In this document: piece by piece, positions 43,980 through 49,239 of the stretch
Layout of the letters: every line of letters begins with the position of its first letter
How positions within the stretch are numbered: the stretch's first letter is position 1
Origin: Christiangramia sabulilitoris
GTDB taxonomy: Bacteria > Bacteroidota > Bacteroidia > Flavobacteriales > Flavobacteriaceae
Assembly: GCF_007050985.1 (NCBI RefSeq)
Contig: NZ_VHSF01000002.1
Span: forward strand, 620,001-684,000
DNA length: 64,000 nucleotides
Reading direction: 5' to 3'
Translations under genes and position numbers: made by a program
Notes under the pieces: model-generated
The model's database searches: none
What the model was told of the DNA's origin: nothing
What the model saw: only the letters and a program-made list of their open reading frames with translations

Positions 43980-44344
43980 TAAAGTTGCAGCCTTTTTCTT
44001 ATCGTCTCCATTAAAACTTCCAGATCCCCTATCTCTGAAAATTCATTTTTCGAAATAAATACTTCCAGGCCTTTATCGGTTTGAGCGAGGACGACCGGAA
44101 ATTCAAATTTATGCCCGAATTTGGAGGCATAAGTTTTCAGGAATTCGTTTTTGTGAAGAAAATCGGTTTTAACATCCAGGCTTTGCCTGAATTTTTTCCA
44201 TTCCTTCTTTTCATCCACCAGGCCATAAGTAAGCTCGCAGAGCTTACAGGAATAAGATGATGGATTCACTACCTTTTGCAATGAATCCATCAAGGCATTG
44301 AGTTTGCCGGAATCGGCATTATATACAAAGATCAGTTTTTTCAC
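43976..44344 (-). CDS. Small protein with CxxC motif, unknown, downstream of gldC
   Basis: A 122-residue cytoplasmic protein. It starts KKLIFVYNADSGKLNALMDSL, given here as KKLIFVYNADSG and KLNALMDSL, contains SCKLCELTYGLV (CxxC at about 33-36), and later FEFPVVLAQTDKGLEVFIS. The fold could be thioredoxin-like (a beta strand, then CxxC, then a conserved Pro in FEFPVVL), but this is only inference. It reads from a GTG whose first base is the last base of the gldC stop (TAGTG), so it should be co-translated with gldC and gldB. Confidence 0.82.
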   Translation of the reverse strand: MKKLIFVYNADSGKLNALMDSLQKVVNPSSYSCKLCELTYGLVDEKKEWKKFRQSLDVKTDFLHKNEFLKTYASKFGHKFEFPVVLAQTDKGLEVFISKNEFSEIGDLEVLMETIRKRLQLY

Positions 44345-44682
44345 TAGCTCTTTTTGATCACGGTCTTCTCAGCAAAATAATCACAGAAATCTTTCATGGT
44401 ATCCCGCATTTTATCATCCTGGGTGGCCCTGAAATAGGTATCACTCATAGATACCAAAGTCTGGTGAAAGAATTTCTTCATTTCATCTACCGGCATTTCC
44501 TTGGTCCAGAGATCTATCCTCAGGGTCTCCTGATCTTTACTATCCCACACAGAAAGCATCAGCGCCTTGGCATCTTCCTTATAAACGTTTCCATCTTCTG
44601 CACTCCAGGTAATATTTTCCGGAACGTGATTTTCATCGGTTACTACCTCTATATTTATTTCAGACTTTTTGAATTGAGACAT
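44344..44682 (-). CDS. gldC: Gliding motility protein GldC
   Basis: A 112-residue protein matching GldC of gliding Bacteroidota: KSEINIEVVTDENHVPENITW, given here as KSEINIEVVTDENH and VPENITW, then FHQTLVSMSDTYFRATQDDKM. In Flavobacterium johnsoniae GldC supports gliding but is less critical than GldB. No signal peptide is visible. Its ATG overlaps the gldB stop (TAATG), and its own stop overlaps the next start. Confidence 0.93.
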   Translation of the reverse strand: MSQFKKSEINIEVVTDENHVPENITWSAEDGNVYKEDAKALMLSVWDSKDQETLRIDLWTKEMPVDEMKKFFHQTLVSMSDTYFRATQDDKMRDTMKDFCDYFAEKTVIKKS

Positions 44683-45641
44683 TATTTCTTCGGTTTATAG
44701 TTCGCTTTATTAAAAATTTCTTCAGCCGGGGTATTAAGCATTCTTTTTATAGAAACATCATTTTTTTCCATGTAAGACCTTATTATATTCCAGCCAATAT
44801 ATTGACCCAGCATAGGCGGGGATTCAGCATCAAGTTCCAGATAGAATTTTGAAAAAGGCGCGGGATACAGGAACCTGGAATACAACTCAGAATCTGTATC
44901 AAAAATAAGCTCATTTTCTACAAAATATCGCCAGATCTGGGCTTCGTTGGCTTTAGCCCATTCGAGCTCCTCTTCTGTATAGCCAATTTTTTCAGCATCT
45001 TCTTTGAACGGAATAAATTTATCTTTCAAATAAAGTAACTTTCCGTAATACAGCATGTGCGCTAAAAATGTTCTGGCTTCAGCTTTAGGCACAAAATTTC
45101 CGGCAATTTCTCCAGCAGCATCAGAAACGATTTGTTCTTTTCTGAAGTTCTTTTTCAAAAATTCCTGAATTCCCAGATAGAAGTTATGTTCCGTGCCCAG
45201 GTAAGTATCCAGGGCAACAAAAAGATAATCCCCCGTATAGATCGTTTTATTCTTGTAATCCACTTCTGAAGTTACCGTAATGACATCTGGCACCTGGAAA
45301 TCTGGAAAATAATATTTTACATGCTGGAAAAGGCTGTGCAGTTCATCATTTTCCACAGAAAATTCAGAAAAAACCTTTTCTACCTCTACCTCTATTTCCT
45401 GCTGTATACTATCATTCAATTTCTGAACCCAGACACTATCCGGGTAGTGTTCAGGAAAAAGGAAAGGATATTTCGTCTTCAAAGCCGGAAGGGTTTCCTC
45501 TGACGCTGCTGCAAACTCACGGTCAAATCTTATCAGCTTAAAATCGGCATCAATCTTATCGATCTCTGCTTCAATTTCAGATTGATTATTACAGGAAAAA
45601 AGGCTTAGTAATAGTAGTAAAAATCCTAAGTTCTTCAGCAT
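44682..45641 (-). CDS. gldB: Gliding motility lipoprotein GldB
   Basis: A 319-residue lipoprotein (lipobox LFSC, Cys17) required for gliding in F. johnsoniae. The mature part shows KLIRFDREFAAASEETLPAL, FPEHYPDSVWVQKLND, and later GDYLFVALDTYLGTEHNFY, typical of GldB. The precise biochemical role is unknown. It heads the three-gene operon gldB-gldC-CxxC protein with a good promoter at 45712-45743. Confidence 0.94.
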   Translation of the reverse strand: MLKNLGFLLLLLSLFSCNNQSEIEAEIDKIDADFKLIRFDREFAAASEETLPALKTKYPFLFPEHYPDSVWVQKLNDSIQQEIEVEVEKVFSEFSVENDELHSLFQHVKYYFPDFQVPDVITVTSEVDYKNKTIYTGDYLFVALDTYLGTEHNFYLGIQEFLKKNFRKEQIVSDAAGEIAGNFVPKAEARTFLAHMLYYGKLLYLKDKFIPFKEDAEKIGYTEEELEWAKANEAQIWRYFVENELIFDTDSELYSRFLYPAPFSKFYLELDAESPPMLGQYIGWNIIRSYMEKNDVSIKRMLNTPAEEIFNKANYKPKK

Positions 45642-45747: not shown

Positions 45748-46539
45748 ATGCAGATCGAAAAAGTAGCTGACCACATCATAAACTGGCTAAAAGATTACGC
45801 AACAAAAGCCAATATGACCGGTTTTGTGGTGGGAGTTAGCGGAGGAATAGATTCTGCAGTAACCTCAACGCTGTGTGCGAAAACCGGCATGCCTACATTA
45901 TGCCTGGAAATGCCTATACACCAGGATAAAAATCAGATCTCAAGAGCAAGAAAGCATATTGATGAATTGCAGCATAATTTCGCCAATGTAAGTAGCCTGG
46001 AAGTGAATCTAACACCTGTTTTTGAAGAGTTTAGAAAGGCAATGCCCCAACACAGGAAAACTTCGACCTTAGATCTATCCCTGGCCAACTCAAGAGCGAG
46101 ATTAAGAATGAGTACGTTGTACTATTTTGCAGGCCTGCATAAATATCTGGTTGCCGGAACCGGGAATAAAGTGGAAGATTTTGGCGTAGGATTTTATACC
46201 AAATATGGTGATGGAGGCGTAGACCTTAGCCCCATTGCAGACCTTTTAAAAAGCGAAGTTTACGAACTTGGAAAATACCTGAATATCATTGAAGAAATCA
46301 TGATCGCCGCTCCTACAGATGGCTTATTTGGAGATAGCAGAAGCGATGAAGATCAATTGGGAGCTTCTTATGACGAACTGGAATGGGCGATGAAAAGTAT
46401 CGACGAAGGAAAAACCGCCGCTGATTTTACGGGAAGAAAGCTTGAAGTATTCAATATTTACGGACGTCTTAATAAAGCTAACCAGCATAAAATGCATCCT
46501 ATCCCGGTGTGCGAGATACCCGTTCATCTAAAGAAATAG
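45748..46539 (+). CDS. nadE: NAD+ synthase (ammonia-dependent type)
   Basis: Amidates nicotinic acid adenine dinucleotide to NAD. The PP-loop is SGGIDSA (31-37). In 263 residues the family marks are RARLRMSTLYYFAGLHKYL, given here as RARLRMSTLYYF, then GTGNKVEDFGVGFYTKYGDG and PTDGLFGDSRSDEDQLG. It lacks the N-terminal nitrilase domain of the glutamine-dependent enzymes, so it should use ammonia. It is divergent from gldB. Confidence 0.96.
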   Translation: MQIEKVADHIINWLKDYATKANMTGFVVGVSGGIDSAVTSTLCAKTGMPTLCLEMPIHQDKNQISRARKHIDELQHNFANVSSLEVNLTPVFEEFRKAMPQHRKTSTLDLSLANSRARLRMSTLYYFAGLHKYLVAGTGNKVEDFGVGFYTKYGDGGVDLSPIADLLKSEVYELGKYLNIIEEIMIAAPTDGLFGDSRSDEDQLGASYDELEWAMKSIDEGKTAADFTGRKLEVFNIYGRLNKANQHKMHPIPVCEIPVHLKK

Positions 46540-46652
46540 ACATCTTGTCGAATATATTTATCACTTTGACTTTTTGATATAGCAAAGCCTTATTTTAGGT
46601 TAAAGAAAGCAAAATCAACGAGTTACCCCCGGACTTGTTTTAATTAGAAATC

Positions 46653-47291
46653 ATGTATCGAGTATTAATCGCAGACCACCACCCCATAATATTAGAAGGT
46701 GTGAAATGTGTACTTCAAAACAATCCGGCGCTTCATGTTTATGGTAGAGTTGGTAGTGGTGCACAACTATTTAATCAATTAGAGAAAGACACACCAGATG
46801 TACTTATCGTTGAATTAGATCTTCCGCAAATAAACGGCATCAATGCCATTAGAAGGATCAAACAGGAATATCCCGAGGTTAAAACTTTAATTTTTAGTTC
46901 CCACCCTGAAGAAATGTATGCGCTGAGTGCTATCAAAGCAGGAGCAGCCGGTTATATTTCCAAACATACAGATAATGAAACGTTAGAGAAAGCGATCTAC
47001 CAGGTGGCACGTGGAGGAATCTACCTGAACCGTAAGATCACTGAGAAACTGAATTCAGGGATTTCCAGAGGTAAAAGCCTGATCACTAAGTTTAAGAAAC
47101 TATCTACCCGTGAGACGGAAGTTCTGAATTTATTGTCTTCAGGAAAACGCAATAAAGATATTGCTGAAGCTTTAGATATAAACGAAAAAACCGTTAGCAC
47201 CTATAAAACCAGGTTACTTAAGAAATTAAAAGTAGATAATGTCGCTGATCTTATTACCCAATCGAGGCTTCTGCAGTTAAATACTACATAA
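46653..47291 (+). CDS. Orphan NarL/LuxR-type response regulator with Glu at the phospho-acceptor site
   Basis: A 212-residue two-domain regulator. The receiver domain (1-120) starts VLIADHHPIILEGVKCVL. The position normally held by the phosphorylated Asp (PDVVLMDxxMP) reads PDVLIVELDLP, so Glu54 replaces Asp. The second acidic residue of the pocket is His9 instead of Asp, while the Ser in LIFSSH and the Lys in GYISKHTD remain. The LuxR helix-turn-helix is LSTRETEVLNLLSSGKRNKD through EKTVSTYKTRLLKKL. No histidine kinase is nearby. It is likely phosphorylation-independent. It converges on dnaG with an 8-base overlap. Confidence 0.9.
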   Translation: MYRVLIADHHPIILEGVKCVLQNNPALHVYGRVGSGAQLFNQLEKDTPDVLIVELDLPQINGINAIRRIKQEYPEVKTLIFSSHPEEMYALSAIKAGAAGYISKHTDNETLEKAIYQVARGGIYLNRKITEKLNSGISRGKSLITKFKKLSTRETEVLNLLSSGKRNKDIAEALDINEKTVSTYKTRLLKKLKVDNVADLITQSRLLQLNTT

Positions 47292-49239
47292 CTCTACCAA
47301 GCCTGTCAGACAGGATCGTACTTAAACTGGTATAACTCATAATTTCCTGGATCATTTCAGTTCTGTTTTCTTCAGAGCCGCCATCTTTCATTTCCTGTAC
47401 CAGTTCGTTAATCTTTCTTTCCACCAGGTACCGTCGAAGAGACAGTATGGTTTGAGTAACATATTGAGAAATACCCTGTTCTTTCTTTTTAACCGGAATA
47501 TCATGCCTCTCCCAGTCATGTAGCTCATATTGCTCCTCTTCCATCAGGATATCGGTAAGTTTTATTGCCTGAGATTTTTCAAGATCATTAATGATCATTT
47601 CCACACCAAATTCGTCTTCACTATTCAGTTTTTCTATAAGCAACTGGAACAATTCTTTAAAATCCTCATTGGTGAATTCTATTTCATCTTCCTGAAGGTC
47701 AAGGAATATTTTCTCAAATACCTTCGCCTGCTGAACTTCAGATTCATAAACCATTTCTCCATGTTCATTCTGTTTTAGAAGAACATCATGAAATTCGGCT
47801 TCTTCCCTTCCATAGAGAATTAAAAGACTAATGATCTTTCGTTCCAGCTCATACAACTGGTCGATTTTGGTCTTAGGAGTTTCCTTCTCCCTGACCACTT
47901 CCATTTTCTTCTTCTGATACTGGCTACCAGTTTTTGGATCTTTATTTTCTATTTGGGCCAGGGTAGCATAAAGAACATCCTCGTTAATGTCCATGATCCT
48001 GGAACATTCCTGGAGATAAACTTCACGCTGAATATTATCGGGGATCTTGGAAATACTAATTACCATATCCCGGATCAATCCAGCTTTTTTGACCGGGTCA
48101 TTCTTAGCCTCATCCATTAATAAGGAGGCCTTATAGGTAATAAAATCGTAAGAATTTTCTTTTAGAAATTCCTGTAGGTCTTCGTCTGAATTTGCCCGGG
48201 CATAACTATCCGGATCTTCGCCTTCAGGAAACGGACAAACCTTTACATTCATTCCCTGTTCGAGAATAAGATCTATCCCCCTTAAAGAAGCCCTGGTTCC
48301 GGCAGCATCCCCGTCAAAAAGAACGGTTATATTTTTAGTCAGCCTGTTGATCAGTCTTATTTGCTCTGGAGTAAGCGCGGTACCTGAAGAAGATACCGTA
48401 TTCTCTATCCCGCTTTGATGGAACTGGATCACATCGGTATATCCTTCCACGAGATAACAGTTATCTTCTTTTGCAATGGCCTGCTTGGCATAATAAATAC
48501 CATACAGCACCTTGCTTTTGTGGTAAATATCGCTCTCGGGTGAATTGAGATATTTAGCGGCTTTCTTGGTATTGGAAAGTATTCTGCCTCCAAAACCCAG
48601 CACACGACCAGACATGGAGTGAATAGGGAACATTACCCGGCCTTTGAACCTGTCGAACCTTTTATTCTCTTTTACAATGGTTAAGCCCGTCTTTTCCAGA
48701 TACTCCAGTTTGTACCCGGCATCAAGGGCCGCTTTTGTAAAAACCTCCCAATCATCCGGCGAATATCCCAGATCGAATTTCTTAATGGTTTCCGGCGAAA
48801 AACCTCTTTCCTTAAAATAGCTGAGACCTATAGCCTGCCCCTCATCTGTCTCATGCATACGCTTCTGAAAGAATTTATTGGCATATTCTGAGACCAGGTA
48901 CATACTTTCCCGCTCATTAGCCTGTTCTTTCTGCTCATCGCTCTGCTGAGTTTCTTCGATCTCTATATTGTACTTTTTCGCGAGGTATTTTATAGCTTCG
49001 GGATAGGTAAAATGCTCATGTTCCATCAAGAAGGCAACAACATTACCTCCCTTCCCGCTACTAAAATCTTTCCAGATCTGCTTCACAGGAGAAACCATAA
49101 AACTGGGAGAGCGTTCATCTGTAAAGGGACTCAAACCTTTCATATTGCTCCCCGATTTTTTCAGCTGTACAAAATCACCGATAACCTCCTCTACCCGGGC
49201 GGTTTCAAAAACATTATCAATAGTGGTTTTCGAGATCAA
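47284..49239 (-). CDS. dnaG: DNA primase, zinc-finger ligands missing
   Basis: Makes RNA primers for replication. In 651 residues the TOPRIM core is visible in VEGYTDVIQFHQSGI and in the metal-binding FDGDAAGTRASLRGIDL. The helicase-binding C-terminal domain is long and charged. The N-terminal CHC2 zinc-binding domain is present in shape (FVQLKKSGSNMKGLSPFTDE, then FSSGKGGNVVAFLM), but the Cys/His/Cys/Cys ligands of E. coli DnaG are replaced by Leu, Thr and other residues. The start appears to be a TTG at 49239 (ISKTTIDNVFETARVEEVIG). Confidence 0.95.
   Translation of the reverse strand: MISKTTIDNVFETARVEEVIGDFVQLKKSGSNMKGLSPFTDERSPSFMVSPVKQIWKDFSSGKGGNVVAFLMEHEHFTYPEAIKYLAKKYNIEIEETQQSDEQKEQANERESMYLVSEYANKFFQKRMHETDEGQAIGLSYFKERGFSPETIKKFDLGYSPDDWEVFTKAALDAGYKLEYLEKTGLTIVKENKRFDRFKGRVMFPIHSMSGRVLGFGGRILSNTKKAAKYLNSPESDIYHKSKVLYGIYYAKQAIAKEDNCYLVEGYTDVIQFHQSGIENTVSSSGTALTPEQIRLINRLTKNITVLFDGDAAGTRASLRGIDLILEQGMNVKVCPFPEGEDPDSYARANSDEDLQEFLKENSYDFITYKASLLMDEAKNDPVKKAGLIRDMVISISKIPDNIQREVYLQECSRIMDINEDVLYATLAQIENKDPKTGSQYQKKKMEVVREKETPKTKIDQLYELERKIISLLILYGREEAEFHDVLLKQNEHGEMVYESEVQQAKVFEKIFLDLQEDEIEFTNEDFKELFQLLIEKLNSEDEFGVEMIINDLEKSQAIKLTDILMEEEQYELHDWERHDIPVKKKEQGISQYVTQTILSLRRYLVERKINELVQEMKDGGSEENRTEMIQEIMSYTSLSTILSDRLGRVM

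Follow-up and report, generated by a model that had tools for sequence, protein, structure and literature searches.

A nadE-linked LuxR-type regulator of Flavobacteriaceae with glutamate at the phospho-acceptor position: a probable pseudo-receiver with canonical relatives in sister families

The nadE-linked regulator and its active-site residues

We analyzed a stretch of 64,000 nucleotides from Christiangramia sabulilitoris (the whole stretch is referred to as the window), in which a gene for a two-domain regulator lies between nadE and a convergent dnaG (Table 1). The protein has the NarL/FixJ (LuxR-type) architecture, i.e., a receiver followed by a GerE helix-turn-helix (HTH) in Pfam, and the full-length fold matches agree. 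The structure model, built with 31 sequences, has a moderate mean pLDDT of 73.9, and its best full-length fold matches are NarL-type regulators, including LiaR, VraR, EvgA, RcsB, and NarL. The nearest named relatives are Christiangramia/Gramella proteins that are 90-98% identical. None of the named NCBIfam equivalogs (NarL, MctR, MadR, and others), among the 25 listed of 78 matched families, reached its curated cut-off, the best score being 154.1 bits versus a cut-off of 242. The HTH is more conserved than the receiver (mean entropy of 0.79 versus 1.63 bits).

Table 1. Features of the regulator locus, in coordinates of the window
Feature	Coordinates	Strand	Evidence
gldC, adjoins gldB	44344..44682	-	TIGR03515, 140.3 bits
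gldB, gliding motility lipoprotein	44682..45641	-	TIGR03514, 447 bits; conserved neighbourhood
nadE, upstream neighbour	45748..46539	+	TIGR00552, 178.7 bits; conserved neighbour
NarL/LuxR-type response regulator with putative pseudo-receiver	46653..47291	+	212 aa; Pfam, alignments, fold matches
Receiver (putative pseudo-receiver) domain, residues 4-115	46662..46997	+	Pfam PF00072 Response_reg, 82.9 bits
Codons 8-9: Asp8 retained, His9 replaces second (metal-binding) Asp	46674..46679	+	Sequence; column tally
Codon 54: Glu at phospho-acceptor position	46812..46814	+	Alignments, tally, model
Codon 56 (D+2): Asp, in canonical sister proteins too	46818..46820	+	Column tally
Codon 82: Ser at conserved Thr/Ser position, kept	46896..46898	+	Ser 112, Thr 3 of 115
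Codon 104: invariant active-site Lys, kept	46962..46964	+	115/115
GerE/LuxR helix-turn-helix, residues 149-202	47097..47258	+	PF00196, 66.5 bits
dnaG, convergent downstream neighbour, 8-base overlap with regulator	47284..49239	-	ORF list, profile match

The protein reads IADHHP at residues 6-11 and PDVLIVELDLP at residues 48-58. Glu54 is gaplessly aligned with the Asp of NarL (1a04), 5hev (labelled VraR or LiaR), and DevR (3c3w), which we take to be the phospho-acceptor, and in the sequence alignment His9 lies opposite the second acidic residue of NarL and of two other solved relatives. In the model, strand 3 is predicted to span residues 50-54 and to end at Glu54. Thus, in place of the intact acidic pair and Asp acceptor of a canonical response regulator, the protein has Asp8-His9 and Glu54, so that two of the five catalytic residues are changed; in the residue scheme of PMC12632262 (section 5), these are DD2 (His9) and D (Glu54). 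With its acceptor Asp replaced, the protein belongs with the aspartate-less receivers. The same genome has 33 receiver matches, 32 of them alignable: 31 have Asp at the acceptor site, and Glu is found in the window regulator alone. Two other receivers of this genome (L376 and L379) keep the acceptor Asp and have an altered acidic pair (EN and QE); they are perhaps further pseudo-receivers.

Asp56 was considered as a substitute or shifted acceptor and was rejected. It lies at D+2, beyond the strand end, and it is not a moved acceptor, because canonical proteins of sister families also have Asp at this residue (Asp in 17 and Glu in 3 of 20).

No sensor kinase was matched within the window by a home-made kinase profile; a partner kinase nearby, common but not obligatory for canonical response regulators, is therefore not seen at this locus. 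The original prediction, which was made from the sequence, agrees with these data on the LuxR-type domains, on His9 after Asp8, on Glu54 in place of the acceptor Asp, on the position between nadE and dnaG, and on the lack of a kinase nearby. The receiver model that it proposed as a check places Glu54 at the strand end, and the true Asp in the pocket (for example, Asp56) that it named as counter-evidence did not materialize.

Several observations concern the gap between nadE and the regulator (46540-46652). Just before the regulator start, the sequence is conserved in Christiangramia and includes a weak inverted repeat and a run of T, perhaps the nadE terminator. Our leader analyses were rough, with some leaders shortened (75 bases were used for the window; the coordinates give 113): of 42 chosen leaders, five were too short for folding, and no shared hairpin was seen by eye in the 37 folded ones, so a leader hairpin before the regulator was dismissed; of 56 non-redundant loci, 16 carry CCCC on the sense strand of the AT-rich gap, compared to 3.0 expected from composition-keeping shuffles, and none carries GGGG. 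Neither a regulon nor a motif attributable to the regulator was found.

Conservation in Flavobacteriaceae and canonical loci in sister families

The family was sampled with 149 genomes, one per genus, and matches were obtained in 135. A best candidate locus was available for 116 genomes; one of these (L256), not beside nadE, was dropped, leaving 115 loci. Thus, 115 of the 149 genomes carry the regulator behind a co-oriented nadE; of these 115, 112 have dnaG behind it in convergent orientation, and 112 have gldB upstream on the opposite strand. A wider-alignment search of the 33 remaining genomes (two had no match and one gave no locus) yielded 30 loci, none with nadE, dnaG, or gldB within the 1.5-kb flank; overall, 34 of the 149 genomes yielded no syntenic copy. 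In one genome each of genera g132 and g150 (L344 and L345), gldC-gldB-nadE is directly followed by dnaG and the regulator is cleanly absent. The regulator is therefore dispensable.

At position 54, the 115 syntenic orthologues have Glu in 108 cases, Asp in 4, and Thr, Ser, and Gly in one each; 111 thus lack Asp54. Position 9 is Asn in 54, His in 35, Pro in 10, Ser in 8, Gln in 3, Phe in 2, and Ala, Tyr, and Glu in one each, and never Asp; the single Glu9 row (L255) carries Thr8 and Asp54. Ser/Thr82, Lys104, and Tyr/Phe101 are present in all 115, Pro58 in 110, Gly62 in 109, and Asp56 in 105. Named genomes (Christiangramia, Salegentibacter, Gillisia, Zunongwangia, Salinimicrobium, Aquimarina, and unplaced genomes) gave a further 80 loci, all 80 of them with Glu54; as the 80 best among 119 relatives, this set is biased to close ones. 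The 24 best-matching loci of other families in the class (L154-L177) all have Asp at the acceptor site, and none is beside nadE, dnaG, or gldB. The same home-made profile detected a kinase ORF in none of 224 Flavobacteriaceae loci, some genomes being counted twice, with at least 1.1 kb of flank on each side (for the shorter flank, the median is 3.0).

A distinct state was found in genus g128, probably Flavobacterium judging by its size in the sample, represented by 20 loci (L278-L297) from 20 of its 24 matched genomes. All 20 have Asn9; 18 have Asp54 and 2 have Glu54. The receiver loop has Ser62 in 20 of 20 and Pro58 in none, i.e., both Gly62 and Pro58 are lost, Lys104 is retained, and the gene is still beside nadE. 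The combination of Asn9 and Asp54 is a possible half-way state. It should be noted that receivers with a damaged acidic pair are sometimes still phosphorylated (PMC12632262, section 20), and by analogy this could apply to g128 proteins with Asp54.

The original prediction listed orthologues with Asp at position 54 as an observation against it, and such orthologues do exist, four among the 115 family loci and 18 among the 20 of g128, all of them without Asp9. Glu54 is therefore not the defining feature of the family. The broader proposal of a kinase-independent regulator family keeps its other parts: the phosphotransfer residues are missing, the suggested test of gene order revealed conservation, and none of the 224 loci has a kinase ORF in the flank examined.

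The sister-family set includes 20 loci (16 from f7, two from f2, and one each from f4 and f9), all with both Asp9 and Asp54, i.e., a canonical receiver. Same-strand nadE is upstream in 14 of them, and two more have dnaG convergent behind the regulator; for the four with neither gene, orthology is based on the match and the tree alone. In 11 loci (f7, 8; f2, 2; f4, 1), a divergently transcribed sensor kinase gene lies upstream of the regulator, at a distance of about 225 bases or less; nine have none, thus the absence of a kinase alone is not proof of independence. HATPase_c was detected by Pfam in all three sister kinases tested (55.8-93.5 bits), and HisKA in one of them. The kinase lies between nadE and the regulator in f7 (L262) and f4 (L260), and in f2 (L259) the regulator converges with dnaG. 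Taken across loci, no one of which has the whole order, this arrangement suggests the ancestral order gldC-gldB-nadE-kinase-regulator-dnaG, with the kinase missing in Flavobacteriaceae. Genomes tried from f3, f5 (6 genomes), f13, f14, and f15 have nadE without such an adjacent regulator; therefore, the canonical locus is not universal among sister families. The "ancestral" state is thus that of few lineages, since 16 of 20 loci are from f7, four have neither nadE nor dnaG beside them, and the genomes tried from five families have no such regulator next to nadE.

Six sister loci (five from f7 and one from f4) have a second sensor kinase behind the regulator on the same strand (e.g., L262:3812-5020 and L260:6208-7713). 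It contains PAS in both cases tested, and the genes that follow appear to encode an AraC-type regulator and a short receiver.

The eleven divergent sister kinases group together in a single clade (100/99), which includes neither the kinases encoded on the regulator's other side nor the four best kinase matches in the window's genome. Searching that genome with one sister kinase gave 18 matches (E<=1e-5), the best with 30% identity. An alignment of 9 sister kinases gave matches at E<=1e-40 in 37 of 60 family genomes and none in the window's genome. In a quick tree, 30 Flavobacteriaceae kinase loci (of 66 matches) fall outside the sister-kinase group, three of them as its nearest neighbours (support 82); the partner kinase may have been relocated in some Flavobacteriaceae genomes. 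A free quick tree placed the sister-family kinase L420 inside the eleven, and a tree constrained to keep the eleven together was not rejected (p-AU 0.569). L420, a long branch of unsure placement, is from a genome whose canonical regulator (L270) has no adjacent kinase, and it may be a relocated partner kinase.

Order of changes and selection

We mapped positions 9 and 54 on a regulator tree (83 rows, with positions 8-10 and 54 excluded) and on a quick tree of the neighbour genes (79 rows). On both trees, the loss of Asp at position 9 is one change, and position 54 (Asp/not-Asp) requires five. In the neighbour-gene tree, g128 and the remaining family members are sister groups (SH-aLRT 98 and 99). 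The simplest reading is that the loss of Asp9 came first, in the common ancestor of Flavobacteriaceae, that Asp54 changed to Glu in the rest of the family, and again within g128, and that Asp returned in L195, L237, and L255. Glu54 is then probably a later step and not strictly required, since 18 of 20 g128 loci combine Asn9 with Asp54; the alternative, an early Glu with reversion in g128, takes one change more by our own count. This order of events is a proposal, because the deep branching of the regulator tree is uncertain and most of the sister loci come from f7. A further reading, which we consider rather unlikely, is that a kinase-regulator pair was converted, in a step that could be dated, into a regulator without a kinase that became fixed throughout the family: the adjacent kinase and Asp9 would have been lost at the root, and at least two independent gains of Glu54 (one in the bulk of the family and one inside g128) would reflect selection for a built-in phosphate mimic after phosphorylation had become impossible.

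Selection was studied in 13 Christiangramia/Gramella loci (78 pairs), and pairs with silent saturation or with dS <= 0.05 were dropped. The median dN/dS is 0.020 for the receiver (45 of 78 pairs) and 0.010 for the HTH (19 of 78 pairs), the median dS of the kept pairs being 1.8-1.9. Both domains are under purifying selection.

The flanks of the pocket differ from those of the sister families. Leu at T-1 in sisters is Phe/Tyr in the family; Met at T+1 is mostly Gly/Ser/Ala/Thr (Gly and Ala in 51 of 115 family loci versus 0 of 20 sister loci); and K+1, mostly Asp/Glu in sisters, is mostly Thr/Ser. Against a pseudo-receiver, much of the receiver machinery persists: most family loci still have Pro58 and Gly62 as well as the Tyr101-Ser82 pair. 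T-1 and K+1/K+2 are among the positions listed as differing in pseudo-receivers (PMC12632262, sections 7 and 22). However, small T+1 residues fall in the pseudo-receivers described in section 7 of that source and rise here, so the trend is the opposite. Since there was a single root transition, these changes are inseparable from plain divergence.

Interpretation and comparison with known systems

These data make it quite probable that the regulator is a phosphorylation-independent (pseudo-receiver) DNA-binding protein derived from a canonical two-component response regulator, the conversion having apparently taken place at the root of Flavobacteriaceae. DD2 contacts the metal directly (PMC12632262, section 7); hence, phosphotransfer should be lost or weak in the window regulator. 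Without Asp9 and Asp54, a kinase would be unable to phosphorylate the protein, which would therefore bind DNA as made, probably as a dimer. Glu54 may aid DNA binding by contacting Ser82 and Lys104, whether through mimicry or simply by keeping a contact to Lys104; that some lineages have Asp, Thr, Ser, or Gly at position 54 argues that it is not essential. The output would then depend on how much of the regulator is present, or on a protein or ligand that interacts with it.

How the output is controlled can be read in several ways. Glu54 might mimic phospho-Asp and keep the regulator permanently on, which would explain its conservation (108 of 115 orthologues and 80 of 80 near relatives) together with that of Ser82 and Lys104, kept to hold the Glu; it also occurs in 2 of 20 g128 loci, and position 54 requires five Asp/not-Asp changes on the trees. 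Asp-to-Glu substitution can activate some receivers, and Glu is the commonest substitute in aspartate-less receivers (26%; PMC4395418). Furthermore, K+2 is Ala/Val/Ile, residues tied to active-like CheY (PMC12632262, section 18), in 87 of 115 orthologues, although the window protein has Thr. However, the gene is still beside nadE where position 54 is Asp, Thr, Ser, or Gly (7 of 115) or Asp (18 of 20 in g128), and ChxR retained DNA binding when its Glu was replaced by Asp or Ala (PMC4395418). Constitutive activity through Glu mimicry is a plausible prediction; as the full account of Glu54 we consider it possible but rather unlikely. Control by a ligand or protein, as in the pseudo-receivers RedZ, JadR1, and Rem (PMC12632262, sections 18 and 20), is a tentative reading that deserves some weight: the emptied pocket and the altered surface would take another signal, consistent with a receiver that is under purifying selection, rather than lost, and that has changed at T-1, T+1, and K+1. 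The variety of residues at position 9 (N, H, P, S, Q, F, A, Y, and E) argues against one conserved ligand contact at that site.

Residual phosphorylation by a distant kinase, through Asp56 or the remaining chemistry of the pocket, is improbable. Of the 115 orthologues, 105 have Asp56 and all retain Ser/Thr82 and Lys104, and 18 kinase matches lie elsewhere in the genome, but Asp56 is already found in the canonical sisters, off the strand end, and the metal-binding Asp9 is missing in 115 of 115. Ordinary local variation, or decay of the gene without consequence, seems very improbable: it could account for the clean absence in L344 and L345, for the 34 of 149 genomes with no syntenic copy, and for the g128 receiver loop without Pro58 and Gly62, but not for the receiver dN/dS of 0.020 or for the fact that 115 of 149 genomes, each from a different genus, keep the gene next to nadE. 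The pseudo-receiver reading predicts that most Flavobacteriaceae have a regulator whose output needs kinase-free control. With canonical relatives, a kinase, a possible half-way state, and gene-less genomes around one locus, ancestral-like and derived forms can be compared directly, and in laboratory bacteria that are harmless.

Atypical regulators of the ChxR type (OmpR/PhoB) have a winged-helix output domain, in place of which the window regulator has GerE. ChxR of Chlamydia trachomatis has Glu at the acceptor position, as here, and binds DNA constitutively (PMC4395418); it is assigned to the OmpR/PhoB type in the title of a reference of PMC12632262, unlike the window regulator with its LuxR/NarL HTH (Pfam). 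NarL, VraR/LiaR, EvgA, and RcsB, among the best solved relatives, share the two-domain architecture and the fold; however, NarL, LiaR, and DevR retain the acidic pair and the acceptor Asp, where the window regulator has Asp-His and Glu. RamR, RedZ, VpsT, and CsgD have a LuxR-type output. They are classed as atypical regulators in PMC12632262, and, like the window regulator as predicted, are understood to join a DNA-binding domain to a receiver for which Asp phosphorylation is not the switch; RedZ and VpsT are ligand-responsive, and all four, compared here by description, represent different lineages.

In the open-access literature searched, we found no description of this regulator family. In the 2025 minireview (PMC12632262, section 22), the activation and inactivation of pseudo-receivers are considered a major unknown, and many independent origins are apparent. 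Aspartate-less receivers and pseudo-receivers are described (PMC4395418 and PMC12632262) as sharing the receiver fold with the acceptor Asp replaced, mostly by Glu; the second acidic residue is usually lost, Lys and Thr/Ser may stay, and the characterised ones mostly lack a linked kinase, and the window regulator is alike in each of these respects. Thus, Glu-bearing pseudo-receivers are already known, and what is new is a family-wide member with an unusually clear canonical relative. In contrast to known pseudo-receivers, this one has canonical relatives and an adjacent kinase clade that are identifiable in sister families, and the trees allow us to propose in which order the residues were lost.
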